From contig JBBPFI010000004.1 of NCBI GenBank assembly GCA_037974965.1, forward strand, positions 62,001 to 126,000: DNA of 64,000 bases. Reading direction: 5' to 3'. The notes beneath the pieces were generated by a model, which was given only the letters and a program-made list of their open reading frames with translations, was not told the origin of the DNA and did not search any database. Both the position numbers and the translations under genes were made by a program. This document shows, one piece after another, positions 10,500 to 45,261 of the stretch (position 1 is the first letter of the stretch; the number at the start of each line of letters is the position of its first letter). The stretch is from Dacryopinax spathularia (taxonomy: Eukaryota > Basidiomycota > Dacrymycetes > Dacrymycetales > Dacrymycetaceae).

Positions 10500-11398
10500 A
10501 TGGCTCCAACCGTATATCTCGTTGCCGGCGCTAGCCGCGGAATCGGTATGTGGCCACGGGTTCGTCTCGCCCGCCTCTACTAACCTGGGACAGGCCTCGC
10601 GGTGGTGACTCAGCTCGCTGCACGCGACAACACCATTGTATTCGCCGGCGCTCGCAATCCCGCGGGGGCTACAGGACTGCAGGAGCTGGTCGGGAAGCAC
10701 CCTGGCAAGGTCCACGTGGTGAAGCTGGCTGCAGCCGACGCTGGAGACAACGAAGCCGCGGTTGCTGAGATCAAGAAAGTCGCCGGTCGTCTGGATATCG
10801 TCCTCTTCAATGCAGGGAAGGGCGATCACTATGCTCCAGCTACCGAGGTCGACCTTGACAATGCGCTCGAACACTTCCACGTCAGTTCTTCACGTCGTCA
10901 CAGCTCGTTTGAGACGCTGAACTGTGGCGTAGACCAATGCCATCGGACCTCTCGCCTTGTTCCAAGCCACCTGGCCCTTGCTGAAGGCTAGCACCGAAAC
11001 TCCAAAGTTCTTCATCACCTCGTCTGCACTGGGCAGCCTACACCTTGCACCCCAGTGGCCTTGGCCCACTTTGGTGTATGGGGCGAGCAAAGTTGCCGCC
11101 AACTATATCGCGGCAAAGCTCTGGTATGAGTATCCCGGCCTGAGTGCGTTTAACAATCTCCTGTCCTACGACAGCGACCTGATGCGATTCTGAATTAGTC
11201 TCAATCCCTATCCATCCTGGAGTCGTCACTACTCCGGTGGCCGACGAGCTCGGTGCTATCGCTCCCAGCTTCAAGGACCTTCCTCACCTTACTCCGGAGG
11301 AGAGCGCCAGCGGCATTATCAAGATCATCGACAACGCCAAGCGCGATGAGAATGGTCCCAAGCTCACCAACTACGATGGAACCACGTTGCCCTGGTAA
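10500..11398 (+). CDS. SDR1, nor-1/sniffer-type reductase, four exons
   Basis: Classical SDR of about 250 residues, expected to reduce a carbonyl with NADPH in the cytosol; the substrate is unknown. The coenzyme loop GASRGIG is split by the first intron (from 10546). Then come FAGARNP, NAG (in LFNAGKGDH), FITSSALGS with the catalytic serine and YGASK with the catalytic tyrosine and lysine. Three introns: after GIG, before the TNAIGPL strand (10881-10932), and before SIPIHPG (11144-11198). The end is YDGTTLPW followed by TAA. It belongs to the three-intron class with SDR4, 7, 11 and 12, whose pre-intron-3 motif is a [YKA]-YP-[GDE]-[LI] type (here YEYPGL). Confidence 0.88.
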
Positions 11399-12286
11399 AG
11401 ACTACCCCGTCGATCGTAGTACAGTAGACGATGTACTCAGCTCAAATCCACAATAAGGGCATGCATTGCCGATTCCTGACTCTAAGTCTGAGGCGCGGCG
11501 ATGGAAAGCCGAATGAGCTTGATATGACATGACGTCGACAGTCAACTGCTTGTGCATGGTGTGAGGTTGCTACCCAGAAGGAGGTTGTTCATGCAACGAA
11601 CGTCTCCCTATAGGGATGGATAACTTCCGCCCGACCTGCTGATGAACTTGGTTAACCTATCGGTGTTGTCAGCGGGATGTGAGCAGCGAGCTGGTTGCTT
11701 GATTATGGATGCGCTGAGATGGAAAGGTCGTCTCAACAGTAGGGGCAAGACAGGCCGGCGGCCGGGCACGTGATCGGTGGGATACGGGTGCTCCCGGATT
11801 AGCAAGCAGGGTCCACCCGCTGGACCCTGATGATGCTGATTAGCAACGAACTTCCCACGGTTCTTAGCGGTCCCACTTATCGCCGTTGGTCAGCTCTCCG
11901 TTTCCGGCACTTTTCCCGTTCCGAAATGGGCGTGCTGGATTTGCAAGCATGCTCATGCTTGGTTCTGGTATGAGACTGCCCAGACCTATCCATGCACCAT
12001 AACACTCGTCTGATGAAGCAGCCACGCTGGCGACCCATATGGATTCGCTCTTGCTCTTTGAAATCCAGTTAGGCTGCAACCTTACCAAGCGCAGGCGCTC
12101 AAGGATGATTACTCAACTACTACTGCTTTTGGCAATCTTGTAGACGCTGTATAAGGAGCTTCGAAGATATAAAAGAGCGTCTGATATGGCAGCAAGAGCT
12201 CATCAACAACACCTCTCCGCCATTCCAAACTGATACCTTGAAAGCACCTATCCCAACTACAACCCAATCACACATCTTCTTCATCA
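11399..12286. other. Intergenic between SDR1 and SDR2
   Basis: About 890 bases without a supported gene. The distal end holds the SDR2 core promoter. I see no SDR remnant or transposon end here. Confidence 0.45.
12168..12175 (+). promoter_or_regulatory. TATA box of SDR2
   Basis: TATAAAAG, 119 bases upstream of the ATG, followed by a C/A-rich leader rich in AACAC and CAAC, typical of fungal 5' leaders. Confidence 0.7.
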
Positions 12287-13077
12287 ATGGCTCCTACGGT
12301 CTATCTCGTTTCTGGCGCCAACCGCGGTATTGGTGGGCATGTACTCTCGAGGGCGCTACCTCCCGCTAACTTTCCATAGGCCTCGGCCTCGTCACCACGC
12401 TTGCCGCTCGCGATAACGTTGTCGTCTTTGCAGGCGCTCGCAATCCGTCTACTGCCACGGACTTGAAGGCTCTGGAGTCCAAGTACCCAGGCAAGGTCCA
12501 CACGCTCAAACTCGTGTCTGGGGACCGGGCCGGAAATGATGCTGCCATCGCCGAAATCAAGCGCATCGCCGGCAAGCTGGATGTGGTCATTGCCAACGCT
12601 GGCATCGCCAAATACTTCGGAACGATCCTCGAGACTCCTTTGGACGAGATGCGCGAGCACTACGAGGTCAATGTAATCGGGCCTACGGTCCTTTTCCAGT
12701 CGGCGTGGCCACTCCTCAAGGAGTCGCCCAAGCCGGAGTTCGGCATCATCTCCTCCATTGCAGGCAGCATCGCCGTCGGCGGCGCTCTCCCTGCTGGCTT
12801 CCTTGCCTACGGCGCCAGCAAGGCGGCTGCCAACTACCTCGCCATGAAGCTGCACTCTGAGCACCCCGAGCTCGTCGTCCTGGACATTCACCCTGGTCCT
12901 GTTGAGACCGACATGGGCAACTTCTCGAAGGAATCCGACCCCTTCATCGCCAAGGCTCTCACGTTCATCACCGTGCAGGAGAGCGTTGACGGAATCCTGA
13001 AGCTGGTTGACAACGCCAAGCGCGAGGAGGACGGGCCGAAGATGATTGGTCACGATGGCACCGTCTTCCCGTGGTAG
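12287..13077 (+). CDS. SDR2, nor-1/sniffer-type reductase, two exons
   Basis: About 247 residues. Only the first intron (after GANRGIG, about 12334-12379, ending ttccatag) is present; the two later intron positions used in SDR1 are continuous coding sequence here (EHYEVNVIGP and HPELVVLDIHPG). Motifs: FAGARNP, ANAGIAKYFG, IISSIAGS with catalytic serine, YGASK, IHPGPVETDMG, ending HDGTVFPW. It is the likely closest intact relative of the pseudogene at 14.3 kb, with which it shares the ETDMGNFSKESDPFIA block. Confidence 0.92.
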
Positions 13078-14319
13078 TCGTATCGTTGCGCTGGTGTACT
13101 AGGCATCGATGTATCTAAAGCAACCCTCCAATGAACAGGAACATACTGCATATTCAATGGCTTTGTGCAGAACTCAGTTCAAACCAGCGTGATTCCCATC
13201 GGCATTTGGCAATGAGTCGAATTCAGGGCAAATCCAGGACAGATCCCGAGGGAGGCTGACGTAGGCGTGCTGCTCGCTCATCCATAACTGGACTCGAAAT
13301 GTATCGGACGAGCGGATCCATATTGTTGCGGTGACAGGGTGTCCATGTGCTCCAAAAATTCAACCAGAACTGACACTCTTACCCAGCTGCACGAGATCCA
13401 CGAGATACATCATCAATGTCGCTACACAGTTTTGGGACATGCTAACTTGGTTGGCGAACAGTTGACCATGGGGATCTGGCAGGTCGATGCAAGATAGGGG
13501 ACCGTCGATCGTCGTCAGTACATTCGTCGGTAGAATGCGTCTGCTACGATAGCGAGGCAACTCGAGAGGTCCTATGAAAACTATCATGTGCTATGGGAAC
13601 TCCTCACTGACCCAGTTTGAGCTCTTCCGACGAAGGTGAAGGCTTCCTTGGATTGGAGGACACTTGGTTCCACTGACTTTGTGCCAGACGGATTGCCCAA
13701 AGAGCCATAAATGAAAATAAGTGAAGACTAGGTAGAACTATGCAGAGCGGGGGGGACTCGCCTACAGGCGCTACAAGGTCCTACGGACCCCTAAGAGCGC
13801 TTTGTAAGACCCTATAGTCAAAGGGATTTTACTGAAGGGTCTCAAAACAATACTATATTGGACTAGACCCTTTGCTTGCTCAGCTAATCAAGACCCAAGC
13901 TAGACCACTGGGAAAACACCGCGCGCGGATGGGTCTAAACCTGCTTGCCGGTTTGCCCGTCGCGGCTTTCCGGTCGTAACTTGCTACTGTCGGCGTACTT
14001 GGGATGTGCCGGACCGCATGACGAGGTCGACCGAGCTGCCATCTTGGGTATCCGCAGACTCTCCACTTTGCAGGCTGCCTCAGCGATGATCAAGCTGTCT
14101 CTAAAGACTGGCTATGTCAGTGTGGTGCTTACGACGGGAAGCCAAAGATGCTTGGGATGACGGTCTCGACGTATGTATATCAAGGCCAAGTTCATTGAAA
14201 CCTCTACTAATTGAATATCCAGGACACAACCTTTTCAACTCCGTAAAGCGACTCTTCCTTGAGAACAAAGGCTGGCCCAAGCAGGCATCGGCACCTCAGC
14301 AGCAGTTGCTTCGAACTGG
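13078..14319. other. Intergenic, possible old repeat debris
   Basis: About 1.2 kb with no supported gene. The part at 13745-13950 has short GGTCT/AGACC-rich stretches and a gctttgtaag string that recurs near 16865, suggesting degraded dispersed repeats, but no paired ends were found. Confidence 0.35.
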
Positions 14320-15085
14320 ACCGACCCCGATAGTCTGCGTGGTTTCGGGCGCAAAACGAGGTAGTGGTATGTTGACCTCCTTCGCCTTGCAGCAGGCTGA
14401 CTGTAAACAGGGCTCGATTTGGTGCATCGCTACTCGGCCAGATGTGATCATATTGCCGGCGCATGAATTCCTGAGAAGGCATCGGAGCTGCAGTCACTCG
14501 CCGCCAAGTACTCAGGAAAGGTGCACATCGTCAAGCCCGTATCGTGCAGGCAAGGACGCCGCGGTGGCCGAGATCCAACACATAGCTGACACGCTCGATG
14601 TCGTGATTGCGAATGCCGGTTCTGCCAAGTACTTCGGCAGCATGCTTGCAGACACCAGAAGAAGAAATGCGCGCGTACTGGCAGGTCAAGGTCATCGGCC
14701 CTACCGTCCTCTTCCAGTCCACCTGGCACTACTCATACAAGCTGCTCAGCCGAACTTGGCCATCATTTCCCCCATAGCTGTCAGGATCCCTGTCGGCGGA
14801 GCGCTCCCAGCAGGTTTCCTGGCTATGGTTCGAGCAAGACGGGCACGAACTTCCTCGCTATGAAGCCGCACATCGGAGCACCCGGATCTGGTCGTGGTCG
14901 ACATCCGCCCAGTACCGGTCGAGACCGACATGGGCAACTTCTCGAAGGAGTCCGACCCTTTTATCGCTAATAAAGCGTTGCAGTTCATTACTGTCAAGGA
15001 GAGTGTAGGCGGCATCCTGAAGCAAGTGGACAGCGCCAAGCGGGAAGAGGAAGGGATGATCGGACACGAGGGCTCAGCTGGTATA
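14320..15085 (+). pseudogene. Broken SDR copy (SDR3), two-exon class
   Basis: A recognisable but decayed SDR. It begins with the remnant TPIVCVVSGAKRGSG, keeps a GT...AG intron at the class position (14366-14410), then loses frame soon after the second-strand motif. Later islands occur in different frames: the DVVIANAGSAKYFGSML region (about 14597-14645), a serine region with PIAVRIPVGGALPAGFLA (about 14772-14823) and VETDMGNFSKESDPFIA near 14919. I count at least four frame changes or in-frame stops, and the YGASK motif is disrupted. It lacks introns two and three, like SDR2 and SDR5, so it was copied after those introns were lost. The C-terminal GPK...DG...PW end is missing. It is the host's own gene family, not a transposon. 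Confidence 0.85.
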
Positions 15086-15647
15086 CGACTCTCGGACACC
15101 GAGATTTCGGACTATTTATATGAACAATTTGAGTACTCAATAATGCTATGCGCATTACGGCGCTTACCTTCCTCCCATGACCGTCGGTCAAACTCGGATG
15201 TCCGCGGAACAGAGACATACATTCAGTTTCCTCCATGTGGGGACCCTGTTTCGACTCGTTGGGTGACCCCATTCAACCCATCCATTCACCCCGCAAGACA
15301 TGTTACGCAATGCTGACCTAACGGACAAATGGGCATCGTTTCTTACACTGATTTGCTAAGGTGATGATTGAATCGAAGGAGGAGATGCCGTATTTCATGC
15401 GGTGGAACAGTTTGAGGCTTACTAGCTGCATATGAGCGCTCGCCGCTTCAGGATTTTAGGAGGCAGTCGGCCTCATAGGAGCGCATGCACAGCGGACGAC
15501 GGGAGGGGTTGCTGAATGGGTGTCGAGCTCAGGAAAGAGATCGCCGAGCGACCGACAAGAATGATATAAGAAGGCGAAGACGACGAAGGAAGCCTCCTAT
15601 TACTCTCAAAGTTCTGCCCGCCGTTCAGTCTGATATCAAGAAAAGAA
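15086..15647. other. Intergenic before SDR4
   Basis: No gene is supported. A TATAAG string at 15565-15570 lies 83 bases upstream of the SDR4 ATG and is its likely core promoter. Confidence 0.45.
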
Positions 15648-16565
15648 ATGGCACCAACTGTCTACCTCATCACTGGCGCCAACCGCGGCCTAGGTATGGC
15701 GGCATCTCCTTTGATCTGCTCGGAACTGACGAAAGTGTACCAGGCCTGGCATTCGTCACCGTCCTCGCCTCGCGAAAAGACACCGTCGTCTTTGCAGGCG
15801 CGCGCAACCCCGACTCTGCCAAGGAGCTCCATGAACTGGCAGCGAAGCACCCCGGGGTCGTGCACGTCGTCAAGCTGAGTGCGACGGACGAAGCGGAGAA
15901 TCGTGCCGCTGTCGCAAAGGTGAAAGAGGTTGCCGGGAGGTTGGATGTCGCCATTGCCAATGCTGGAATCACGGGCCGCTTCGAGGAGACTCTGCATACT
16001 CCCGTCGACACAACGCGTGAGCTGTTAGAGGTCCGTTTGACTGCCCGAAGGAGAGTTATCCACTGATGACGTGGATCACACATGTAGGTGATGGCTCTGG
16101 GACCGTTGATCCTCTTCCAAGCAGCCTATCCCTTGATGAAGGCGACCTCGGACAACCCCAAGTACTTGCTCATGAGCTCCATAATAGGCAGTATCGAAGT
16201 CAGCACGCGAATTCCGTCCAAGACGACCGAATATGGGATGGCTAAGGCTGCTGCCAACTGGTTCGGCAGAAGGCTGCATTACGAGTACCCAGGACTTGGT
16301 GTGTAGCCAGCCATTATCCAGTACTTTCTAGTGGTTTACTCAGCTCGCTTGCTCAGCCGTCCTCATCGTCCATCCTGGGTCGGTCGCCACCGACATGCTG
16401 ATTGAGTCGGGCAAGAAAGACTCGGTGCTCGCCGGCGCGGTGCCGACCGCTATCACTCCAGAGAAGAGTGCACGGGACATCCTGGGTTTGTTGGATAACC
16501 TCAAGCGAGATGAGGAGAACGGGCCAAAGCTCATGGTGAACGACGGATCCGTCTTGCCGTGGTAG
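15648..16565 (+). CDS. SDR4, nor-1/sniffer-type reductase, four exons
   Basis: About 250 residues, three-intron class. Introns follow GANRGLG, follow TRELLE (16030-16087) and precede VLIVHPGSVATDM (about 16300-16357). Motifs: FAGARNP, ANAGITGRF, LLMSSIIGS with catalytic serine, and YGMAK, where the usual YGASK has two changed spacer residues but keeps tyrosine and lysine. The end is NDGSVLPW then TAG. It is one of the more divergent members (TRIPSKTTEYGM in the substrate-side loop), so its substrate may differ from the two-exon copies. Confidence 0.87.
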
Positions 16566-17194
16566 ATGGACTCCAGTGGCTAGGAGACTCGCGAGCTGTA
16601 ACCATGTAGGAGGAGAATAGACAACGTCTGGATAGAGTGACGGTCGAAGCAACTTCTAACCACATGTTTGGTTTGCTGGTCTGGATTGGTCTGGCTTCAG
16701 CGCAGACCCGCTTCAGACCATCAGCTTCAAGACGGGTCTCAGCGAGGTGTGCGGGCCTTACGAAGCAAAGTAAGGGTAGACCCCTACTGACGTCACCGCG
16801 TGTCCGCTTTATCAGCCATAGAATTCCCACGAACCCCTGCCAACGGCGCCTAACGACCAAACGCTTTGTAAGAGTCTTCTGCAGCGACCGCTGGTCCAGG
16901 CTTTCGACCCTGACTTACTGCTTTGTAAACCGCTAATCGATCTTATCAATCCCCTACGCTTCAACAATGAGCAACGTCTGTCTGTCTCTTGCTAATGTGC
17001 TTGTTCAGCGACAGGGCGTTAGCTCAAAGCTAGTCCTCGATGGTGACTTGACCACCTGCTCCAGGGGATATAAAATGGAGTTGCGTTCATCATCTGTTAT
17101 CCACCAGCGAGCAATTCGAGCAAACATCCTCTCTTAGACACCATACCAAAACAGCCTACCTCACCAGAAGTTCCTTCCAATCAGCAAACTCTCA
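16566..17194. other. Intergenic between SDR4 and SDR5
   Basis: No gene. At about 16670-16745 there are several GGTCTG/CAGACC words in both orientations, as in a worn inverted-repeat element, but no clean ends or target duplication. The SDR5 TATA box lies at the distal end. Confidence 0.35.
17069..17076 (+). promoter_or_regulatory. TATA box of SDR5
   Basis: TATAAAAT, 126 bases upstream of the ATG, followed by an AC-rich leader. Confidence 0.7.
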
Positions 17195-17996
17195 ATGTCT
17201 CCGAGTCCCACTGTCTACCTCGTCTCTGGCGCGAACCGCGGCATTGGTATGTTCCTTCCTAAGCCAGATCGTAGTAGATACTTACGACCACGCAACAGGC
17301 CTCGGTCTGGTTAAATCGCTTGTCGCTCGACCTGATGTGGTCGTCTTCGCCGGTGCACGTAACCCCGACAAGGCCTCCGACCTCAAATCGCTGCAGTCGC
17401 AGCACCCCGCTAAGCTCCACATCGTCCAGCTCACCTCCGCCAACCGCGCAGACAACGAAGCTGCCATCGCCACCATCCAGAAGATTACCGGCAAGCTCGA
17501 TGTCATCATCGCCAATGCGGGCATTGCGAAGTTCTGGGGGAGCATTCTCCAGACCCCGGAGGAAGAGATGCGCGAGCATTACGAAGTGAACGTCATCGGT
17601 CCTATGGTGCTCTTCCAGTCTGCCTGGCCGCTGCTAAAGCAGTCACCCAAGCCGGTGTTTGCTCTTATCACTTCGGTTGCCGGATCGATCGCTGCGGGCG
17701 CTGCTATGCCTGCCGGCTTCCTGGCTTATGGGGCTAGCAAAGCTGGCACGAACTTCCTCGCTATGAAACTGCATTCTGAGCATCCCGAGCTCGTCGTTGT
17801 GGATATCCACCCTGGAGGGGTAGAGACGGAGATGGGCGACCAGGCCAAGAAGGAAGACCAGACAATCCGTGAGAACCTCGAGTTTATCACGGTTGAGACT
17901 AGCGTTGCGGGGATCCTGAAGCTCGTCGATGGAGCTAAGCGAGAGGAGGAGGGACCGAAGATGGTCGGCTATGACGGCACTGTCTTCCCTTGGTAG
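17195..17996 (+). CDS. SDR5, nor-1/sniffer-type reductase, two exons
   Basis: About 250 residues; only the intron after GANRGIG (about 17248-17299, ending gcaacag) remains. Motifs in order: FAGARNP, ANAGIAKFWGS, LITSVAGS, YGASKAGTNFL, IHPGGVETEMG, YDGTVFPW. The start MSPSPTVYLVSG has two more residues than its sisters. It shares the one-intron structure and the HSEHPELVV block with SDR2 and the pseudogene, so these three form the youngest-looking subgroup. In the serine motif the residue pair is TS rather than SS, which keeps the catalytic serine. Confidence 0.92.
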
Positions 17997-18662
17997 ACCA
18001 AAAACACTGCTTTCGAGCACCAATGTAGCACTAGAACAAAGACTGTAGCATAGATTTGTAATATTCATTGACGCTATACCTCGAATTCCTGTTATTGGCC
18101 GGAGTCATCCGTATTACGCGACGGGTGTAAACCCGTGACTCACAACCTCCGGAGCAGACGCGGACTTGCTGCGGGAACACTCTTCCTACGATTGAAAGCA
18201 GTAGGGCAACGTAGGAACGCTCCGTTTACCGTCCAATCTTCCACCAAACTCCGCGTCTCGTGGTTACTTTTCTTGAAGCGCACTTCGTAGCAACACGTCA
18301 ATCTCCCCACGCTCAACTTCCACCGTTTTTCCAGACGAGGAGATGCATAGATGGGTATGTGCTTAGAAGAACATTGTCCGATCAGATTCGTTCAGCAGGA
18401 AGGTTACTACTGTACGCAAAGATACGGATTTCCATGCATTGCCCTCCAGCGTTCCTAGAGCAGACTGAGCGAGGAGCGAGAGATGACTCGAGTCCTAGCT
18501 ATGACTGTTCTTATTATGATGTCAGCAGAGATTACGATCTGGACCAGTGGAACAGCACGGTCTGCGGTATAAAATGAACGTTCTCGGCGTCGTCGATTTC
18601 TTGAAACGCACAAATCTTAACAGAGCTATCCAAGCCGTACAGCCCCGTGCCGACCAAAACAT
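17997..18662. other. Intergenic between SDR5 and SDR6
   Basis: No supported gene; holds the SDR6 TATA box at its end. Confidence 0.45.
18568..18575 (+). promoter_or_regulatory. TATA box of SDR6
   Basis: TATAAAAT, 95 bases upstream of the ATG. Confidence 0.65.
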
Positions 18663-19515
18663 ATGGCACCCACCGTCTACCTCGTCTCTGGCACCAACCG
18701 CGGAATTGGTAGGTGCTCCTCCGGACCCTCAGCACGGAGATATGAGAACTGAGACGTACATGCAGGCCTTGGCCTCGTCAAGCAGCTCGCAGCCCGTCCG
18801 AACACCATCGTCTTCGCCGGGGTACGCGACCCGTCCTCCGCCAAGGACCTGCAAGCTCTTGCGACCGAGCACCCAAACAGAGTGCACATTGTCCCTCTCA
18901 TCTCCACTGACGGTCCCTCCAATGAGTCAGCTATCGCTTCCATTGACGAAGTTGCTGGTCGACTCGACGTAGTTCTCGCCAACGCGGGGATCAACACCTA
19001 CTTCGGCCCCGTTGTCGAGACTCCGGCCGACGTGGCGCTCGAGCACCAGCGAGTTAACTTCCTCGGGCCACTCGTACTCTTCCAGGCTGCCTGGCGACTC
19101 CTGAAGAACAGCGAAAATCCAAAGTTCGCCATCATCTCGTCTCTGGCGGGTAGTATCGAGGTGGGCGCTGCCATCCCGGCTGGGATGTTGGCATACGGGG
19201 CGAGCAAGGCAGCTGTCAACTATCTTGCCGCAAAGATGCATCACGAACATAAGGAGCTGAGTAGGCCTCTTCCTTTTCCCAAACGGTTACTTCGGCTCAT
19301 CATGCGATGGTTTAGCGGTGATCCCCCTGAGTCCTGGAGGTGTGGCCACAGATATGGCTGCATTCGCCCAGAAGGCGGATCCCCTCATGGCGTCCATGTC
19401 GCTCATCACGGTTGAAGAGAGCGCCAGGGGTATCCTTTCAGTTGTCGATAGTGCAGTGCGCAAAGAGGATGGGCCCAAGTTAACCAACTATGATGGAACA
19501 ATGTATCCTTGGTAG
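18663..19515 (+). CDS. SDR6, nor-1/sniffer-type reductase, three exons
   Basis: About 247 residues, two-intron class: introns follow GTNRGIG (about 18709-18765) and precede VIPLSPGGVATDM (about 19260-19316); the middle position is continuous (EHQRVNFLGPL). Motifs: FAGVRDP, ANAGINTYFG, IISSLAGS, YGASKAAVNYL, YDGTMYPW. FAGVRDP replaces FAGARNP in the second-strand motif that contacts the cofactor's adenosine side. The sequence is intermediate between the HPEL group and the YP group. Confidence 0.88.
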
Positions 19516-19948
19516 ATGATAGTACCGTCAGAGGAGGAGAGGAGACGGAGGGTGGCGCAAATCGAGGGGTCGTGCGTGGGGTTTGCATGGAATGTAGGGG
19601 ACCAAATGGACCATCGGCCTCTCCTGCTGTTGACCACCAATCTCCTCTACTGCAGCTAATGAAATTATCGTTTACTCCTCCTAAAAGCCACTGGCACGAC
19701 TGTTGGGAACGTTTCGACCTTCATCATGAGCGGTGTAACCCGCTGGGTCGCCCCCGTCGCGCCCATGCGATACTCTAAGCACCAATCACCCTTCGCGCTC
19801 TAGTGACATCTCTGAATCGCCCGAATTCTGGTCACCAAACCCGCCAGGCTCCATGTTGGACCCACCGATCTTCTGAACTGCATAAACGAGAGAGACATGT
19901 CGAACGAGGCGATGTAGAGTCTCTCGAAACTGCTAAGAGCTGGACAGG
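19516..19948. other. Intergenic between SDR6 and SDR7
   Basis: About 430 bases without a gene; only a weak TATA-like CATAAA lies near 19880. Confidence 0.4.
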
Positions 19949-20917
19949 ATGGCGACACCTACAGTATATCTAGTTTCCGGCGCGAATCGTGGTCTTGGTG
20001 CGTCGTCTCTCAAGCATCCATATGAGCGTGTCCTGACGTCTTCTCGAGGCCTCGGACTTGTCACTCAGCTCGTGGCTCGAGAGAACGTGACCGTCTTTGC
20101 CGGTGCCCGCAACCCGGATACGGCATCCGATCTCCAAGCGCTCACTGCGAAGTACCCAAACAAGCTTCACATTGTCAAACTGGTATCGGCCGACGAGAAG
20201 GGGAACCGCGCTGCTGTGGAGGAGATCAAGCGTATTGCTGGACGGCTGGATGTGGTGATCGCTAACGCGGGTATTGGAAAGCATGTCGGCCCCGCCTTGA
20301 CCACCCCACCTGAGACGATGCGCGAGCATTACGAGGTATGTATGCGCTCTCAGTCCGTCCTCCTTGCCTCCAATTCACACGGTATTGTCCCATCAGGTCA
20401 ATGTAGTCGGTACCTTGGTCGTTTTCCAAGCGACGTACCCACTCCTCAAGGCCTCCACCTCAAAGCCCAAGTTCTTCCCCATCTCCTCTGGTGCAGGAAC
20501 CATGTCCAGCGGCGCACGCTTTCCATTCCCCGTCCTTCCGTACGGCGCAAGCAAAGCTGCGGAGAACCATATGTCCGTCAGGCTGTATTATGAATATCCG
20601 GATTTGAGTGAGTGACCTGCCTTTCGGAGTGGGTCGTAAAAGGCTTATAATGGAATGTGCCAGTTTGCTATCCCATCGAGCCTGGCGCAGTTGAGACTGA
20701 CCTGAGTAGGCTGTTTTCTTTCATGGTTCGCACATTTGATCTCATGGCGTCTTCAGTGAAAGCGGCCGGGGAGTACGATCTTCGTATAGCTCAGATGCCG
20801 AAGCTCACGCCGGAGGAAGCTGCTGCTAACGTGCTCAAACGTGTTGACGAGCTTGAGCGTACGGAGGAAGGCGCGAGCCTGGTCAATGCTATTACGGGTG
20901 AAACGAGGCCATGGTAG
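19949..20917 (+). CDS. SDR7, divergent nor-1/sniffer-type reductase, four exons
   Basis: About 265 residues, three-intron class (after GANRGLG, after MREHYE at about 20337, after YYEYPDL at about 20611). Motifs: FAGARNP, ANAGIGKHVG, FPISSGAGT with the catalytic serine, PYGASKAAENH. The segment after IEPGAVETDL is longer than in the sisters and carries LFSFMVRTFDLMASSVKAAG, which changes the lid over the active site. The end, ITGETRPW, lacks the YDG of the others. The stop is 123 bases from the stop of the convergent SDR8. Confidence 0.87.
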
Positions 20918-21040
20918 ACTTATCCTGAACATCGCATCCGGTTACTTTGGAGGACGAATCAATTAAGCAGTGTTTGTGCGTTGCTTTGAATCTACGGATG
21001 TTTCTATGATCATGCTACTGAGGGTGGAGGACGGTGTCGT
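20918..21040. other. Tail-to-tail junction of the two SDR blocks
   Basis: Only 123 bases separate the stop codons of SDR7 (plus) and SDR8 (minus). The two 3' ends must be very close or overlapping. Confidence 0.8.
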
Positions 21041-21892
21041 CTACCAGGGCAGGACCTCTCCCTCCCAGCTCAGCAATTTAGGACCGTCCTCCGTCCTCTT
21101 TGCCCCATCCAGCAGCTTCACGATGCCGCTCACGCTCTCGTCCACGCTGATCGGCTTGAGCAACTCCATGAGAATCGGCTCCTTCTGCTTGCCGAAGGAT
21201 GCCATATCCGTTTCGACCAAACCAGGATGGATATCAAGGACAACTGACAGGGCGAACGAATTATCAGCCTATCACTCTCGTATGCGAAGGAAGGCGCGTA
21301 CTAAGCTCAGGATGCTCCGCGTGGAGTTTCATCGCAAAATGGTTGTCTGCCGCTTTCGTGACCCCGTATGCAAAGTTCATCACAGGAAGCGGGGCACCGC
21401 CAGCGATACTTCCCGCCAAGCTGGAGATAATGACGAACGTGGGCTTGGGAGACTCCTTCAGAAGCGGCCAGACGGATTGGAACAATACGATCGGACCAAT
21501 GACGTTCACCTCGTGATGCTCGCGGATCTCTTCCTCAGGCGTGTCGAGGATACTGCCGTAGAATTTCGCGATCGCCGCATTGGCAATCACAACGTCGAGC
21601 TTGCCGACGACCTGCTTGATCTCCTTGACTGCGGCTTCATTGTCTTTGCGCACCGCGGAGGTGAGCTTTACGATATGGACCTTGCCTGGGTACTTCGTCT
21701 GCAGTGCCTTGAGGTCGTGGGCCGAGTCTGGGTTGCGTGCGCCAGCGAAGACAACGACGTCCGGACGCGCCGCGAGGGCTTTCACCAGCCCGAAGCCTAC
21801 ATGGATCTAAGCCGCTTGCCCGGTAAAACGGCTAGTAACAACGCACCAATGCCTCGGTTGGCGCCGGAAATGAGGTATACTGTAGGCGACAT
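21041..21892 (-). CDS. SDR8, nor-1/sniffer-type reductase, three exons
   Basis: About 248 residues on the minus strand. Introns follow GANRGIG (near 21845) and HAEHPEL (near 21302-21245). Motifs: FAGARNP, IISSLAGS, FAYGVTKAADNHF and LDIHPGLVETDM, ending WEGEVLPW. In the ANAG motif the final glycine is alanine (ANAAIAKFYGS); this loop stabilises the central sheet and positions the active-site asparagine, so the change may alter activity. The catalytic serine, tyrosine and lysine are present. The sequence is close to SDR9 and SDR10. Confidence 0.88.
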
Positions 21893-22569
21893 GTAGGGAT
21901 GGGTTGCGGTAGTGGATTCTGTTGTGGACGAAGAGGCGAGTTCTGTACTTTTTGCTGTTGTTTGAGCTGGCGGACAGGCAAGATCTTATAGCTCGCTCAT
22001 CATACTCCTCGTCCGCGGTTCCCTGCCAAGTCGGAGTTTATGAATCGTAATGGTATGTCAGCTATCAAGCTACGTCCTATGATGCTGGACATAATTGCGC
22101 GATGAGATTCCCGGTAAGAGAAACAAGAAGAAAGAGTATTGCCACGCACAGCCGGCAGTCTCGTTGCGGCAGCAGGCTGAGCGCTAACCAACGGACGACA
22201 AGCGGGCGCCAGCGGACGAAAGATCAACAACTTCCCGTTTCCTTATTTGGGCTCTTCTATCAGATCTCGAAGATTGGCGCCGAATTTATTGCTGATAAAG
22301 CACCGAAAACGCGGAGATTACGCAATGTTGCTGGGCAACATTCCGGTGGGGATTGGCCGAGCAACGTAACGATTACTCGCGGATTCCCAGGACGCCTAGT
22401 GTCCGTAAGCTATGGTGCAATAGCTTGCCACACGTGATATTCGGTACGATATGGTATACGGCCATGCTACTATGTTTGCAACAACTTCGACACGACACGC
22501 GACTCTACAAGCCGACAGATCGACGCGACGGGGGTGAACGAACGGGCGCCCCCCCAGCCTGCTGTACAT
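21893..22569. other. Intergenic between SDR8 and SDR9
   Basis: No gene is supported. TATAAG on the minus strand at 21985-21990 is a likely SDR8 core promoter element, about 95 bases upstream of its ATG. Confidence 0.45.
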
Positions 22570-23417
22570 CTACCAGGGTAACACCGACCCGTCAAAATTC
22601 AGGAATTTCGGCGCCTCTTCGGTCCGTTTCGCGTTATCCACCAGATTCAAGATACCATTGACGCTGGTTTCCACAGGGATTGGTTTGGCGAATTGCTTGA
22701 GTATAGGTTCCTTCTCCAACGCAAGCTTCCCCATGTCCGTCTCCACCGTTCCAGGATGGATGTCGAGCACAACTGTACATCATCAAGGTGAGTACGGATC
22801 GCTAACATTATAAAGCAAGACGTACCCAGCTCAGGGTGTTCTCCGTGGAGTTTCACGGCAAAAAAGTTCACAGCGGCCTTGGAGATGCCATACACTCCTC
22901 CCTTGATAGGGAGCGGGGCACCGAGGGCAATGCTTCCTCCCAAGCTGGAGATGATGGCGAAGGTCGGCTTGGGTGATTCCTTGAGCAAGGGCCATGCTGC
23001 TTGGAAAAGCACCATAGGGCCGCCGACGTTGATCTCGGTATGGCCAAGGAGTTCTTGAACCGGCGTCTCCAGGATACTGCCGTAGTAGTTGGCTATGCCG
23101 GCGTTCGCGATTACAACATCCAGCTTGCCGGCGATCTTCTTGATCTGTTCGACCGCCGCGTCGTTGTCGGCACGGTTAGCAGAAGTGAGCTTGACGACAT
23201 GCACTTTCTCCGGATACTTGGAGTGCAGCTCATTCAACTCGCTGGCTGAGTCGGGATTCCGCGCCCCAGCGAAGACGACCGCATCGTCGCGAGCTGCAAG
23301 TGCTTTGACTAGACCAAGACCTGGACAGATGTGAGCTGGCATACTCTCTTTGCTCGAGTGTAAGTACATACCGATACCCCGCGTAGCACCAGAGATCAGG
23401 TAGACGATAGGAGCCAT
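22570..23417 (-). CDS. SDR9, nor-1/sniffer-type reductase, three exons
   Basis: About 248 residues. Introns follow GATRGIG (about 23372-23322) and HGEHPEL (about 22826-22773). Motifs: FAGARNP, ANAGIANYYGS, IISSLGGS, VYGISKAAVNFF, LDIHPGTVETDM, FDGSVLPW. An upstream in-frame start candidate exists at 23477, but the ATG at 23417 gives the family N-terminus MAPIVYLISG and the longer start would overlap the TATA box, so the downstream ATG is chosen. Confidence 0.9.
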
Positions 23418-24029
23418 GATGGTTGCAAGATTTCTGCAGCAGCAGGCATCACTGTCGACAGGGCTTATATAACCCACGCTGATGAGGAGTAACCCGTTCG
23501 TCCATTACGTGGACAGGCCCCGACATTGGTGCCTCACCCGTCGACTTGGGAAAGCTGGACCAGATCTGGCTGGAAGGTGGCACACGCAATCATTCAAGCC
23601 CCGTCCAGAATTCGTGCGTTGACGGACAACATTCGGAGCAAAAAACGAACGAACGTCGGCGAGGTTACCTCCTTCACCCGCTTTCCAAATGAGAGCAACC
23701 TGCGAAGGTGACCAAAATGTACAGTTATCGGTGGAGGCCGAATCGGACGACGCCGTAATGGTCCGGGGTAACTTCAGGGATCTGATAGGGTTCCCGCACA
23801 TCGGGCTCCGCAAGTCAGATTATGTAAGGTGCTTGCACCACCCTGTCGCATCGGACGAACGAGTAGCGCTTTCCAGGCATTTCGATCCATGGATGGAATG
23901 TCTTGGCACTCGGGAACGGCTATTACTCATCAGGGATACAGGGGGGGTCTGCAGATTCCGCCGGAAAGTGATCACATAATTCGCTTCCAACATCTAATGA
24001 CACAAGAGGGCTTCGCATAGCTACATAGC
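23418..24029. other. Intergenic between SDR9 and SDR10
   Basis: Nothing recognisable apart from the SDR9 promoter. Confidence 0.4.
23465..23472 (-). promoter_or_regulatory. TATA box of SDR9
   Basis: TATATAAG on the minus strand, 48 bases upstream of the ATG, closer than in the sister genes. Confidence 0.6.
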
Positions 24030-24865
24030 TTACCAAGGTATTACCGCACCGTCGTACCCAATCAGCTTCACTCCGTCCTCCGGGCGTTTCGCGTCGTCCA
24101 GCTGCTTGATGAGGCCCTGAACACTCGTTTCCACACTGATTGGCGTCATCGAATCGAAGAAACGCTCGACCGTCACAGCGAATTCCGCCATCTCCGTAGC
24201 CACAAAGCCAGGATGCAGGACGAGCACGACTGAGCAGAGAATGAGCAGTGCCGTTTGCAAAAGAAAGAGTAAGACTTACTGAGTTCCGGATGTTCGACAT
24301 GCAGCTTTATAGCGAAGTAGTTCACGGCCGCCTTTGACATGCCATATGCCACATTCTTAAGTGGAAGCGGCGCTCCTACCGAAAGACTTCCGCCGACACT
24401 GGAAATAATGGCGAAAATCGGTTTCGGCGACTGCTTCAGTAGTGGCCAGACAGCCTTGAAAAGCACAACAGGGCCAACGACGTTCACTTCGTGGTGCTCT
24501 CGGATCTCTTCCTCAGGAGTGTCGAGAATGCTTGCGTACACTTTCGAGATTCCGGCATTGGCGATCACGACGTCCAGCCTGCCGGTGATCTCCTTGATTT
24601 TATCGACGGCGGCGAGGTTGTCGGCACGATCGGCAGAGGTTATCTTGACGATGTACAGCTTGTCGGGGTACTGAGTCCTGAGCGCTTCTAGCTGGTCTGC
24701 CTTGGCCGGGTTGCGCACACCGGCAAAGACGACGACGTTTGGTCGCTGGACAAGGACGTTCACGAGGCCGAGTCCTGGCAAATGTCAGACGATGCTTCAT
24801 GTTGGAAGAATGAACATACCGATGCCCCGATTCGCGCCCGAAATGAGATACACTGTGGAGGCCAT
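24030..24865 (-). CDS. SDR10, nor-1/sniffer-type reductase, three exons
   Basis: About 246 residues; introns follow GANRGIG (near 24820) and HVEHPEL (near 24285). Motifs: FAGVRNP, ANAGISKVYAS, IISSVGGS, AYGMSKAAVNYF, then VVLVLHPGFVATEM and a phenylalanine-rich MAEFAVTVERFFDSM stretch, ending YDGAVIPW. It groups with SDR8 and SDR9 by the EEEIREHHEVNV block and by having two introns. A TATTAAAG-like string on the minus strand about 70 bases upstream may be the core promoter. Confidence 0.9.
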
Positions 24866-25505
24866 AGGTTCAGCAGGCTAATGAAGGGGATTTGAGTACA
24901 ATGTCAACGCGAGCCTCCGCACATTGTCGCCCTTTAATAGTGCTGGATGTCACCCTCCAAGCGCCCGGAACGATCTTCGTTCATGCTGACTGATTCGCTG
25001 AGCAAAGAAAGAGCGACAATTAATGCTTTGGCCGAGGTAGCGAAAGTCGGCTCAGCTGGTGGAATTTCCAGCCTCGCAAATAGGCGGCAGAACAAACCCG
25101 GAGGTGATCGACAAGATCGCGTCGCAGACGCCTGAATGGGGAGCTTTTAAGGCAGCCTGGGAGTGATACTCCCACGCCCGCAGGGAATGCTGGCCACAGT
25201 CGGGCTCGGACCACTCGCGGAGAAGGCTCCATATATTGCCGGGATTTGTTGCTGACACAACCTCGCACGGGCCGTGATTGCGTAATGTCCAACGAAGACC
25301 CTTGGCTCGGAATCGGCCGGAATCCCCGAGGCTTTCGAATTGTGCATGGCTCGTTCATTACCCGGTCAACTTGCAAAATCAAGACTCGGACTAAATTGTG
25401 CAGATGATACAATATAGTCTGTAGAATCTTGATTAAGATTAAAGACATGAAGAAGACGACATGCTCACAATACTTCCTTCCTCCCAACCCTCCAAGAATG
25501 CAACC
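24866..25505. other. Intergenic, SDR10 to membrane protein
   Basis: A minus-strand frame at 25020-25487 has no ATG start or motif and is not supported. No repeat is seen. Confidence 0.4.
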
Positions 25506-26708
25506 TCAGATCCTCTTCCCCTCTCTTTCCTCCCACAGGATGTCATCTCTCCACATCCATGTTCCTGACAACAACGCTGCCGGGCCCATGAGGATAAACG
25601 CGCCAATTTTAATCCCCCATGTGCCGGGGTCGAGCAGCTCCTTCCAAGCCCTGGTGGTTCGTGTCTGGCTAATCGCACACAACGCAGCAGCATATGTGGA
25701 GACGAAGATGAAGATCCAGTCCCATTTCAGGAAGTTGGCCAGTGTGAGCCAGAGGTAGCCTTCCGCACTGACATCGGGTGTCGGCACGTCGAGAACGGGG
25801 AGGAAGGTTCGTGCATAGGCGGTCCACATACGTGCGTAGCCACTGTCAAGCTCGGCAGCTTCAAGCAGCGCGGCAACGTGTGCGATCGTCCCGATAACGA
25901 CGCCCAGACCTTGGGTTGTGCGAGCCCAGAAGTCCCCGAATCCGGGATCTTCGCCAGCTTGTGCAGGGCGGAGTAGCGCCCATACTTCACGGGCCACGGC
26001 GATAGTGAATGGGAAGAACTGCCAAGCGAGCGTCCATCGTGGATCGTTGAGGAAGAGCATGCCGAGGGTCGGGATGCCGTAGCCAAAGAGGATGCCAGCA
26101 AAGACCGCCTCACCCCTATGGCTAGGGACTGCCGATCGGGGCTCGCTTGTGAGCAGCAGCACGAGATAGTATATCGGAAGGATGAAGCCTCCGCCTAAGT
26201 TCTGGTAGGCGAAGCCCCATAGAATGGGATACCGTACGAAGATGCTTGCCCCCGGTCGCTCGGCCTCCAGGTACTGCACCCCCAGCACTGGGATCAGCGT
26301 AGCCAGCAGCTCCCACGACAACTCTCTCCCTCCTCCGCCCGCAACAGTTCCTGGCGAGACGTTTGGCCATGGCGATCGTAGAATGAGCTCGAAGAACGTA
26401 GTGAGGAGGCAGAAGGTATCGTTCGCAGTCACGGTCCAATTGCCCAACCACGCTGGTAGGTATTGGAACTGGCTGGGCGTTGCTCCTGGCGGACACCACG
26501 TGTGCAACGTAAGAGGAGCATTGGGTATAGGGTGATTGATCGGATACCACATGTTATGGTACGCAAACGCCGACAGCGTCGTGAATAGCGGGATGAGGAT
26601 GCCTGCCGGGACGGGCGTCGAGATCCGGGTTGTTGTTGGGTGTTTGGCGACCGCCGTCGGTGATGCCGCCTTCTCCGTCGTCGCCATCTTCGGCGTTGTC
26701 GTCGACAT
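25506..26708 (-). CDS. Multi-pass membrane protein inside the SDR array, single exon
   Basis: Uninterrupted frame of 400 residues with the ATG at 26708. After a Ser/Thr/Lys-rich N-terminus of about 30 residues come roughly seven to eight hydrophobic segments, including GILIPLFTTLSAFAY, FILPIYYLVLLLTS, AVFAGILFGYGIPTLGMLFL, TTQGLGVVIGTIAHVAALLE and IFIFVSTYAAALCAI. The ELILRSPWPNVSPG motif and the overall plan resemble fungal integral membrane proteins often found near secondary-metabolism genes, but I cannot assign a reaction. It is transcribed in the same direction as the flanking SDRs, with separate promoters. It has no intron although all intact SDRs do. A CACTA miniature element lies 350 bases upstream of its ATG. 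Confidence 0.75.
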   Translation of the reverse strand: MSTTTPKMATTEKAASPTAVAKHPTTTRISTPVPAGILIPLFTTLSAFAYHNMWYPINHPIPNAPLTLHTWCPPGATPSQFQYLPAWLGNWTVTANDTFCLLTTFFELILRSPWPNVSPGTVAGGGGRELSWELLATLIPVLGVQYLEAERPGASIFVRYPILWGFAYQNLGGGFILPIYYLVLLLTSEPRSAVPSHRGEAVFAGILFGYGIPTLGMLFLNDPRWTLAWQFFPFTIAVAREVWALLRPAQAGEDPGFGDFWARTTQGLGVVIGTIAHVAALLEAAELDSGYARMWTAYARTFLPVLDVPTPDVSAEGYLWLTLANFLKWDWIFIFVSTYAAALCAISQTRTTRAWKELLDPGTWGIKIGAFILMGPAALLSGTWMWRDDILWEEREGKRI

Positions 26709-27058
26709 GTAGGGCTAGCTGCCTTCCAGAAAGGATAGCTAAGAGAGGAGGAGGGGAAGACAAGAGTGCGGTTTATGTTGTGCACGACGAAACATGACAC
26801 GAACGTTGAGATGGCGGATTGCTAATTCCGGTAATTCAGGGTGTAACCCTTGGCATCTGATCGGAATCGATTGGGCGGGCTTTCTCCGAGTGCCACAGTT
26901 TGTGGCGATTCTTATCGCTTTCCATCGATGACATCTTTCTTGAAGACTTTCTTGCCAAATTTGCTGAGAACTGTTCGCCCTTCCAATCGGTCTTCAATAT
27001 GAAGGAATCGACAGATGCTGACTGGTTTCGACCTATGAGCGACGCGAAGTACCACGCT

Positions 27059-27748
27059 CACTAGGGACCCGGGTCTCACTGATAGCCAGTGAGTCCAGCA
27101 CTGACTATCAGTATTTACGTGCAAAGCGCACTTATTGCCCACCTTGGGCACCGGTAAGAGCTTGTGAGGTAGATCAGTGCGCACTTTTGCTTATGGCTAA
27201 GTCCCCATCAAAGGGTCCTTGTGCGTCGCTCTTCTCCTATTGACCACCATCTCTGCAAGCGATAAGGTAAGTATATGCGCATAGAACTGTATATATTGGT
27301 CTCATTTCTATCACAGGTTGAGAACAGGTACCTTGGACAAGAGCGGTGCACACCCTTCTTAAATGGTTCAAGGACTTAAACTGACATATTGGATAGGGAC
27401 CTTCGAGCGCAGTCCACCCACAGGAGATATGTCCTCATACTCTCACGATTCTAACACACCAACTATTTGGCTTCATTTGATTATCTTTTTCGGTCTCTAT
27501 TTGAGCTGTATAATGAAATTAAGTATACACAATAATGTTCTAGAAGTGATTGCGGAAAAGTGCAAAACACATTGGCTATCAGCGCTCATACCACTGACTG
27601 TCAGTGTATTGCTGCACTGAAAACGGACATTTTGCGCTGGATATCAGTGTAGGTTTACACTGACAATACAGTACCTTATACACTGATATCCAGTGCGTTG
27701 TTCACTTATTGTTCACACTGACAATCAGTGTATATCAAGACCCTAGTG
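27059..27748 (+). mobile_element. CACTA-type miniature element, copy 1 (690 bp)
   Basis: Starts CACTAGGGACCC and ends GACCCTAGTG, giving inverted ends of CACTAGGG. It is flanked by a direct GCT (27056-27058 and 27749-27751), the 3-base target duplication expected for CACTA transposons. Both subterminal regions carry repeated imperfect palindromes of the type CACTGATnnTCAGTG. It has no transposase. Internally it shares with copies 2 and 3 a block ending aaggtaagtatatgcgcat. It is non-autonomous, and its orientation is set by that shared block. Confidence 0.88.
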
Positions 27749-27894
27749 GCTGGCGGCTACACAAAATCTCGGTCTAACGCTCTACTATCTGTTTCGCTAT
27801 TAAGTGGGTATACTGAGGCTGCTTCGCAAGCGCTGCACCCGTCCACGATCTTATTCATGTGCTGCTGCCTTACAAGTTCAAACATGTCAGCTAT

Positions 27895-28815
27895 TTACCA
27901 CGGCACGACAGATCCGTCATAGTCCAGCATCTTCGGTTCCTCTCCCCGCGTGGCCTTGTCTATAAGCTGTAGCAGTGCCGCCGCACACTCTTGGGGGGTC
28001 ATCTTCTGTATCTCGTCAACGTATGGGACGCTCTTGGAGGCAATCTTAGCCATATCGGTCTCTACGACACCAGGGCTGATCGGGACAGTGACTAGCGAAG
28101 AAGCTCAACATCCCCGATCTCTACCTTTTGGAGAACTCGTAGACTCACCTATCTCTGGATACTTGTGCCACATCCTGGCAGCAATCCAATCGACCGCTGC
28201 TTTGCTCGCTCCGTATGGTGTCACGGGTATGGGCATCGCCGACCCGACCTTGGCGCTGCCGAGGAGCGAGCTGATGATGATGAATTTGGGAGTCTGCTTG
28301 CTGGCCTTGAGCAGCTCATACGTCGCCTGGAAGAGCACTAGCGGACCGAGCGTATTAACCTGCACAACGTCCTCAGCGTCTACCCCGTTCGGTCGACGAG
28401 AACGAACCTCGAAGTGCTCCCTCATCGCCTCCAAGGTCGCGTCTAACGGCTCAAGGTAGACGGTGTGGATGCCTGCATTGGCGATGACGACATCCAAGTA
28501 ACCGGCAACCTCCTTGATCGTTGCCACAGCTGCTTCGTTGTCCTCCCGATTAGCGGACGTTAGCTGGACGATATGGAGCTTCCCGGGATGCTGAGCTTCG
28601 AGCGCGCGCAGAGATGTGGCAGATGACGGATCGCGCGCGCCAGCGAAGACGATCACATCGCCCCTTACCAGCAGCGCGGTCACTAGTGCCAAACCTGCTT
28701 CTAGTGAGTAGCGCATTCATGAGGACTAACCTCTCGCTCGAAGCTTACCAATTCCGCGGTTAGCTCCGGAGACAAGGTAGACCGTCGGGCTTGCTACATC
28801 GATTGTGAGGGACAT
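27895..28815 (-). CDS. SDR11, nor-1/sniffer-type reductase, four exons
   Basis: About 255 residues. The ATG at 28815 gives MSLTIDVASPTVYLVSGANRGIG, slightly longer than in the sisters. Introns follow GANRGIG (about 28747-28697), MREHFE (48 bases at about 28410-28363) and YPEI (about 28148-28092). The middle intron is a multiple of three without a stop, so unspliced transcripts would add 16 residues. Motifs: FAGARDP, ANAGIHTVYLE, IISSLLGS, PYGASKAAVDWI, ISPGVVETDM, YDGSVVPW. It pairs with SDR12 by AxxWxAARxWHxYPxI, indicating a local duplication. Confidence 0.88.
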
Positions 28816-29300
28816 AATGACGACAAGATACTGGTTGTCCAGGGGTTGACCTTTGGGGATACTGCAAGAGACAAGGCTTTATACGATCTCTACAACCTCC
28901 ACCTTACGCCAGCGCTAATCGGCCTCGCCCTTATAAGGCCCTGACTTTCCGCGATACCGTTCCATATCCATTGTGTGTGCGGTCGGCTGGAACATTCGCA
29001 GCGTGCCAAGAATAGTACGAACCCATTCGTACAGATGCGCGATCTTAGTTTGTAGGTGAGTTCTTCGGCCTCCAGATCCCGGCGCTCACTTCGCTGATTG
29101 CTTTGCTTCTAATTGCCAGCCTGCTTGCCGCTCTGGACGGCTCGCCGGCATGACCATCGCTGCGGTCTTCTTTCACGGACATGTGACAGTGCTTCTTCCT
29201 GGGATCACTGATTGAAGCGCAGGACATGAGAAACCGCCCAGATACGGTGTCATATTGGGCACGGCTATGGCCCTATCTCCTTCACACGAATCTACAGGAT
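28816..29300. other. Intergenic between SDR11 and SDR12
   Basis: No gene; contains the SDR11 TATA box and a second TATAAGG-like string near 28931. Confidence 0.4.
28877..28883 (-). promoter_or_regulatory. TATA box of SDR11
   Basis: TATAAAG on the minus strand, about 62 bases upstream of the ATG. Confidence 0.55.
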
Positions 29301-30220
29301 TCACCAGGGATGTACCTTGCCGTCGTGCGCCAATAGCTTCGGCTCGTCTCCCCGCTCCGCCTCATCAACCAGCTTTAGCACCGCCTTCGCACTCGCTTCA
29401 GGAGTGAGCATCTTCAAGTTCTTGACTGCTGGAAGGGCCGCGACAGCACCGGCAGCCATGCCGGTATCGACAAGTCCCGGACTGACAGGGACAGTAACTG
29501 GCATCCGGGTAACATCCACGATCAGCAGCCTGCCCTTCTCGCACGATCTGGGAAGGAAGACATACCAATGTCAGGATACGCATGCCATATCCTCGCTGCG
29601 AGCCAGTTGAGAGCAGCCTTACTCGCCGCGTACGGCGTCGAAGGGAACGGCATCGCAGTTCCCATCTTGACACTCCCGAGGCCGGTGGTCACGACGATAA
29701 ACTTCGGCGTCTTGCTGCTTGCCTTCAGAAGCTCGTAGGCCGATTGGAACAGGACGAGCGGGCCGATCGCATTAACCTCCCAAACTGTTTAGAACGCGAT
29801 TTACGGTCGATTAAGCGCCGGAATGTACCTCAAAGTGCTCTCGCATCGCCTCAATGGTCGTCTCCAGCGGGTCCGTAAAGGAGGCATTCATCCCAGCGTT
29901 GGCGATCACCACATCCAGCCTTCCGGCGACCTCTTTGACCTTGGCGACGGCAGCCTCGTTCCCCGCCCGATCGGCAGAGATAAGCCGAACGATATGTAGC
30001 TTGCCTGGGTGCTGCTCCTGGAGCGCTCGCAGATTCTTGGCTGAGGCGGGATCACGCGCGCCGGCGAAGACGATCGTGTTCTCCCTCTCGACCAGTTGGG
30101 CCACCATCGCAAGACCTGTCACACTGTTAATACCGTGCGCTTCCGTCCCAGTTAGCACGAGCAGGAGGACATACCGATACCGCGAGTCGCGCCGGAAACC
30201 AGGTAGACCGTCGCCGTCAT
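29301..30220 (-). CDS. SDR12, nor-1/sniffer-type reductase with altered serine motif, four exons
   Basis: About 247 residues, three introns at the class positions (after GATRGIG near 30176, after MREHFE near 29828, after YPDI near 29568). Motifs: FAGARDP, ANAGMNASF, PYAASK with catalytic tyrosine and lysine, and VSPGLVDTGM. The stretch that normally reads ISSxxGS is VVTTGLGS, so the catalytic serine position is threonine. Some SDRs tolerate threonine here, so loss of activity cannot be assumed. VDTGM replaces the common VETDM. The end is HDGKVHPW with a TGA stop. It is the last member of the array. Confidence 0.86.
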
Positions 30221-44783: not shown

Positions 44784-45261
44784 GAGGATATTTGTGCAGG
44801 GATAGGTCTTGTTTTGGGGAAAGAGGCGGATGATCACTGATGGCACTGATGGACGACTGATCAGAGAGGGAGGGAAAAGGATGGGATATGCAAGCAGTCC
44901 CCTGCTGTAAAGACAGTACTTTGAGGGCGCATGTCTCCAACATGCGCCGACAAAGTACTAACCCCGCCAGGAAAGCTAGGTGCGATGAGTCGACTCTCGA
45001 GCAGGCATTGACAGTTGCCTCATGTTATCGAAGCGCCGCTCGACAGACGTTCATGTCCCGTACAGCCCCCAGTTTTCCCTTCGCTCTGCCGGGAATACAC
45101 CCTGGTATGTGGTGCTTCTGGAAAGCAAGGTGAACCCGCACACATATTCACTCCGTTATTTGCCGATGTCAGAGTAAACTCATTAAAGTAAGCTCGGGCT
45201 GATATTCGGCACCTCCGAGTCGTTGTGCGGAAGCAGACGTCGATGCAAGTGAGTGGGATCC
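44784..45261. other. Intergenic upstream of the HMG gene
   Basis: No gene is supported up to the second CACTA miniature element. Confidence 0.4.

Follow-up and report, generated by a model that had tools for sequence, protein, structure and literature searches.

Why would a basidiomycete keep a dozen or more genes of the same kind of reductase at one place in its genome? The question is raised by Dacryopinax spathularia (genome of 29.2 Mb in 24 contigs), where positions 62,001 to 126,000 of contig JBBPFI010000004.1 (hereafter C4) form a stretch of 64,000 nucleotides, the window of this analysis, with an array of short-chain dehydrogenase/reductase (SDR) genes at its positions 10500-30220. On balance, we think it probable that they belong to a panel of NADPH-dependent carbonyl reductases, which evolved by birth and death at a single locus, has diversified substrate pockets, and likely serves in detoxification. 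Gene models made with a spliced aligner written for this analysis, together with a self-comparison of the window, gave twelve SDR genes, seven on the plus strand facing five on the minus strand across a junction of 123 bases. This reproduces exactly the arrangement and limits of the original prediction. The similarity between the open frames is far above chance, with E-values down to 6e-116 in the BLASTP self-comparison, and the introns are short and of the GT-AG type. An open spliced frame was found in 11 of the 12 copies, each terminating in Pro-Trp and a stop codon; in copies 5, 7, and 11, the start is an ATG 1-7 codons ahead of the model start, taken from the sequence.

The number twelve, as originally given, is an effect of the window edge. 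Whole-genome searches with copies 2 and B revealed six further copies (A to F) on the same contig, all upstream of the window (C4:5.3-53.0 kb). There are hence 18 copies, of which 16 are intact, within 87 kb (C4:5.3-92.2 kb), and the 64-kb view had undercounted the family by a third. Neither search gave a sequence of nearly this similarity on another contig: the top match to copy B outside C4 is on C3 (E 7.4e-10, 29% identity) and that to copy 2 is on C1 (E 5e-9, 32% identity). Two short pieces on other contigs are more alike, one on C6 (69 residues, 42% identity) and one on C2 (45 residues, 51%), but the genes that contain them (L044 and L042) are placed outside the cluster in the tree described below. 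A genome-wide search with the PF00106 profile scored 19 of 164 candidates, none of those listed being on C4, and is not a census of SDRs. The genome has TTAGGG telomeres, and among the telomere matches listed C2 is followed by C5, with none from C3 or C4. Since the start of C4 lacks telomere repeats, the cluster could run past the end of the contig, although neither genome search placed copies on another contig. Its position may be subtelomeric.

The closest solved sequences are 7ypd, which matches copy 2 at E 2.4e-45 and copy B at E 1.4e-54, and 7xwh. Foldseek also favours 7YPD and CgSDR, with the modest weight of a query restricted to exon 2 of copy 2 and a mean predicted local distance difference test score (pLDDT) of 57.7. 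The carbonyl reductase 7YPD, from Rhodotorula toruloides, resembles the copies in its full-length homology, glycine motif, full catalytic tetrad, both NADPH arginines, and C-terminal Pro-Trp, whereas it is a single enzyme, known for fluoroketone reduction, with other pocket residues. CgSDR, the patulin-detoxifying SDR of Candida (Meyerozyma) guilliermondii (7XWH-7XWN), is also homologous over its full length (E 3.5e-34 with copy B, 34-40% identity), and its tetrad and NADPH arginines align with those of the copies. The Sniffer-type carbonyl reductases 1YO6 (E 6.6e-17) and 1SNY (E 5.4e-16) align with copy 2 as classical SDRs for most of their length and are much more distant from it than 7YPD and CgSDR. 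The enzyme treated in PMC12225012 is another SDR, not of this kind.

The copies have the landmarks of this class of enzymes. Exon 2 of copies 2 and 5 scored 75.5 and 85.2 bits, respectively, against the Pfam profile adh_short (PF00106; cut-off 26.6), and the remaining intact copies align with these two from end to end. All three glycines of the GxxxGxG motif near the N-terminus are present in the 16 intact copies, and 13 of these have the full N-S-Y-K tetrad. The original prediction had taken eleven copies of the window as functional, with all landmarks and a complete C-terminus; the open frames and their Pro-Trp ends agree with this, and the tetrad of copies 4 and 12 does not. Arg12, Arg35, Tyr155, and Lys159 (CgSDR numbers) are invariant in the intact copies. 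According to the CgSDR study, use of NADPH goes with two basic residues, one in the glycine motif and one in the loop between beta2 and alpha2 (PMC11926874). Because these four residues are invariant, use of NADPH is expected, and by their sequences the copies are expected to be NADPH-dependent classical SDRs of the 7YPD and CgSDR kind.

The family is old. Pairwise identity among the 16 intact copies ranges from 45% to 79% (mean 53%), and BLASTN similarity between copies stops at or near the gene ends. In all ten pairs for which we computed substitution rates, picked for closeness or contrast, nonsynonymous divergence (dN) is 0.14-0.33 and synonymous divergence (dS) is 1.06-2.9, near saturation, with dN/dS of about 0.08-0.21. 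Identities this low, a dS of at least 1, and a low dN show an old expansion under purifying selection.

To place the copies relative to each other, we built a tree of all 18 copies together with 7ypd, using as outgroup 10 further SDRs from the same genome. The copies and 7ypd group together, apart from the outgroup, with a support (89/92) just below the line that the tool draws for firm branches, and 7ypd lies inside the group on a long branch of unsure placement. The copies are closer to each other than to the remaining genomic SDRs included in the comparison, as in a tandem array, which bears out the earlier claim of a local family expansion. Firm groups are F+1 (100/100), 11+12, {6,(2,3,5,8,9,10)}, (2,3,5,8,9,10), and {8,9,10}, and many deeper forks lack resolution. 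Copies F and 1 are 19.5 kb apart and flank a stretch with a Plavaka transposase. Approximately unbiased (AU) tests, made with copy E omitted, rejected as clades the minus block (cost of 67.7 log units, p 7e-5), the plus block (158.4 log units, p 2e-65), and the twelve copies of the window (91.4 log units, p 1e-12). The original description of an array built from two convergent blocks thus fails as history. Since the blocks are not clades and one clade mixes plus and minus copies, the convergent layout is best read as rearrangement within one cluster. As for a bacterial origin, a scan of genome contigs with copy B, based on short exact patterns and weak as evidence of absence, gave a single match of 29% in Sphingomonas.

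Fixed machinery is accompanied by variable pockets. The CgSDR study names Ala90, Phe93, Ser139, Leu150, and Phe152 as patulin contacts, adds Phe200, 211, and 212 by modelling, and gives Val187 to Phe as the best mutant (PMC11926874). For the comparison we used the well-aligned, non-catalytic columns 90, 93, 150, 152, and 187 (CgSDR numbers), with copies 3 and E omitted. Their mean entropy is 2.52 bits, versus 1.27 for all columns and 1.34 for their direct neighbours, and the column of Val187 ranks 2nd of 246. Random sets of five columns were as high in 23 of 50,000 draws and, in a second run, in 9 of 50,000; the count is 52 of 50,000 when only variable columns are drawn and 3 of 50,000 outside the loop 188-215. 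A first run with columns 93, 150, 152, 187, and 200 gave 0 of 20,000. As column 90 was added and 200 dropped after that run, every one of these counts should be taken as descriptive. Across the 16 intact copies, the five residues occur in 15 different combinations. No copy has all five residues of the CgSDR patulin pocket (copy 2 is nearest, with 3 of 5), and we do not class the copies as patulin reductases, even if some may act on patulin through other pockets, as other enzymes do.

We propose that this family arose through tandem duplications of old date, together with inversions, the loss of introns, and the death of some genes. Purifying selection maintains its catalytic and cofactor machinery, and the substrate pocket varies between copies. 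Given this fixed machinery and the change of the pocket from copy to copy, each intact enzyme probably reduces different or overlapping aldehydes and ketones with NADPH. The set would act as a panel, most likely detoxifying reactive carbonyls from the food source, from competitors, or from the fungus' own metabolism. Pockets more divergent than the rest of the enzyme are what one expects if the copies handle many toxic aldehydes and ketones. The spread of carbonyl substrates originally suggested survives to the extent that it fits the pocket variation and the functions of the nearest solved relatives. Yeast YKL071W, the closest characterised homologue of CgSDR, is active on formaldehyde, furfural, glycolaldehyde, and benzaldehyde, and its substrates include aldehydes derived from lignocellulose (PMC11926874). 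In a study of the 'xenome' of wood-decay basidiomycetes, cytochrome P450 (P450) and glutathione S-transferase families show multigene expansion, with tandem copies that differ in activity, a pattern proposed to track the diversity of substrates (PMC3815920). The word dehydrogenase is absent from that study; here, in contrast, it is a reductase family at one locus. SDRs are reported among the commonly induced genes in brown-rot transcriptomes (PMC7033688). The profiles of GH7 and class II peroxidases had no match in this genome, nor in any of 14 control genomes, and are uninformative on lifestyle.

Several observations weigh against this interpretation. Three of the 16 intact copies have an altered tetrad (Asn111 to Met in copy 4, Ser139 to Thr in A and 12); for the latter change, docking of the active GOX0716 has Thr in place of the catalytic Ser (PMC11926874). 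Yeast YKL071W, mentioned above, is described as NADH-dependent (PMC11926874). The pocket excess is less striking for the other four columns when 187 is left out (238 of 50,000), and it is smaller within the clade of copies 2, 5, 6, 8, 9, and 10 (1.60 versus 0.79, 446 of 50,000). The contact positions come from one relative with one substrate, 34-40% identical to the copies. Of the nine residues listed for that relative, two (Phe211 and Phe212) are without an equivalent in the copies and a third (Phe200) falls in a loop that aligns poorly, such that five columns carry the test. Copies F and 1, and only these, agree in all five residues, and high pocket entropy may stem in part from relaxed constraint. 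Finally, 7ypd, 38-48% identical to the 16 copies, is almost as close to them as the least similar copies are among themselves, so that some duplications may be older than this lineage and predate its split from Rhodotorula.

A stronger version of the panel, a genomic library of substrate pockets on one scaffold present in 18 copies, in which positive selection drove the specificity hot spots of the pocket apart, the Val187 position foremost, while the core stayed fixed, and in which the detoxification trait is the whole cluster rather than any one enzyme, is a tentative suggestion that we regard as rather doubtful.

Biosynthetic tailoring, by which the SDRs would be ketoreductases of a secondary-metabolite pathway, seems unlikely to us. 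Classical SDRs often tailor polyketides and terpenoids, and norsolorinic acid ketoreductase is such an enzyme in aflatoxin synthesis. Genes of glycosyltransferases and sugar transporters upstream and an unclassified membrane protein inside the array would suit this idea. However, no polyketide synthase, nonribosomal peptide synthetase, terpene synthase, or P450 was matched among the 147 neighbouring open reading frames (ORFs) scanned with Pfam, in line with the original remark that no core biosynthetic enzyme accompanies the array. The scan covered, frame by frame, 147 of the 214 non-SDR ORFs of at least 70 aa in C4:1-126000, with 151 translations, some overlapping, submitted as 10, 10, 10, and 8 singly and as batches of 62 and 51. 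It showed a housekeeping right flank, with Cdc73, then EH-domain and WH2 proteins and a RhoGAP, and on the left side polysaccharide lyase 14, NmrA-like, glycosyltransferase, sugar transporter, centrosomin-motif, and Plavaka proteins. Moreover, one pathway would rarely need 16 divergent ketoreductases. The membrane ORF has no match in Pfam, NCBIfam, or PADLOC, and its single-sequence structure model is unusable (pLDDT 40.6). Two homologues of it, with 29-36% identity, are encoded at other sites (C4:168 kb and C2:1.0 Mb), so that it is probably not a specific partner of the array.

It is quite unlikely that the cluster reflects near-neutral birth and death, with tandem duplication in a permissive region and a generic function spread over overlapping, unspecialised copies. 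Two of the 18 copies are broken, the tetrad changes affect intact copies, and a Plavaka transposase and dispersed repeats occur in the region, yet 16 copies are still open at a dS of at least 1 under the low dN/dS given above, whereas neutral copies would have decayed. Selection for dosage, put forward in the original prediction and meaning that many equivalent copies raise one reductase activity, is very unlikely in spite of the number of intact copies, which have upstream regions of their own, of the TATA-like 6-mers enriched upstream, and of the identical pocket residues of F and 1, because dosage arrays are expected to be near-identical and these copies are old, divergent, and under purifying selection, with dS of at least 1, similarity that ends with the genes, and pocket residues among the most variable.

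The panel of carbonyl reductases that we prefer is an array of a known kind, unusual in its size and its clean confinement to a single locus and not categorically new; a limited search of the open-licence literature found no comparable SDR array. Its 16 natural variants of one reductase scaffold could help to show how the members of a tandem family share out substrates, and could supply biocatalysts.

The introns record part of the history of the cluster. Three introns, which follow exons of 46, 287, and 208-211 bases, interrupt ten of the intact copies, with a possible fourth in copy 7. Intron 2 is missing in copies 6, 8, 9, and 10, and introns 2 and 3 are both missing in copies 2 and 5 and in the broken copy 3, while the 5'-most intron is present in every case. 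The tree requires a single change of intron 2 and two changes of intron 3, the latter reduced to one if copies 2, 3, and 5 form a clade, which is not rejected (p 0.22, AU test). Retention of the 5'-most intron in all cases makes loss biased towards the 3' end, for instance through recombination with a cDNA, likely rather than gain, the direction depending on a weak root. The result is a nested pattern of missing introns inside one gene cluster.

Table 1. Positions of the SDR copies and of the features between them. Positions without a prefix refer to the window, those with C4 to the contig.
Feature	Position	Strand	Remarks
SDR copy A	C4:5337-6285	-	intact
SDR copy B	C4:8826-9727	+	intact
SDR copy C	C4:10404-11308	+	intact
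SDR copy D	C4:48484-49385	+	intact
SDR copy E	C4 about 50.4-50.9 kb	+	remnant lacking exon 1 and C-terminus; model scores 110, the others at least 545
SDR copy F	C4:52105-53014	+	intact
SDR copy 1	10500-11398	+	4 exons, intact; sister of copy F
SDR copy 2	12287-13077	+	2 exons (without introns 2 and 3), intact
SDR copy 3	14321-15079	+	pseudogene (model with 5 frameshifts and 1 stop); tree neighbour of copy 2 (weak support)
SDR copy 4	15648-16565	+	4 exons, open frame; Met in place of catalytic Asn
SDR copy 5	17195-17996	+	2 exons, intact
SDR copy 6	18663-19515	+	3 exons (without intron 2), intact
SDR copy 7	19949-20917	+	4 exons, intact; fifth uncertain (51-base in-frame intron in model)
Tail-to-tail junction, stop codons of copies 7 and 8	20918-21040		123 bases
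SDR copy 8	21041-21892	-	3 exons, intact
SDR copy 9	22570-23417	-	3 exons, intact
SDR copy 10	24030-24865	-	3 exons, intact
ORF of probable membrane protein	25506-26708	-	400 codons, between copies 10 and 11
SDR copy 11	27895-28815	-	4 exons, intact
SDR copy 12	29301-30220	-	4 exons, open frame; Thr in place of catalytic Ser

Long antisense ORFs lie over several SDR copies (window 12304-13098 on the minus strand and similar frames) and are alike among themselves; they are probably a side effect of the codon bias of the sense genes and not separate genes. The TATA-like 6-mers upstream of the copies include ATAAAA, found in 7 of 16. Beyond such words, the search for a common regulatory motif gave nothing convincing, the word CACGTGA occurring in 5 of 16 upstream regions with an uncorrected p of 3e-5 among 4095 words.

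Between SDR copies C and D, upstream of the window, a sugar-transporter gene has likewise been duplicated locally (L033 and L034, C4:23433-24951 and C4:31087-32701), its two copies having the same orientation and 65-74% identical DNA. The Plavaka transposase ORF between F and 1 (window 6385-8277, plus strand) has a copy of 86% identity on C3 and several more distant relatives. Finally, window 27059-27749 contains a dispersed repeat of about 690 bases, apparently non-coding, which is also present at 45261-45959 and 46508-46662. It has CACTG-N5/6-CAGTG palindromes near its ends and 13 matches beyond itself on 8 contigs, with 65-78% identity, and looks like an old non-autonomous element.

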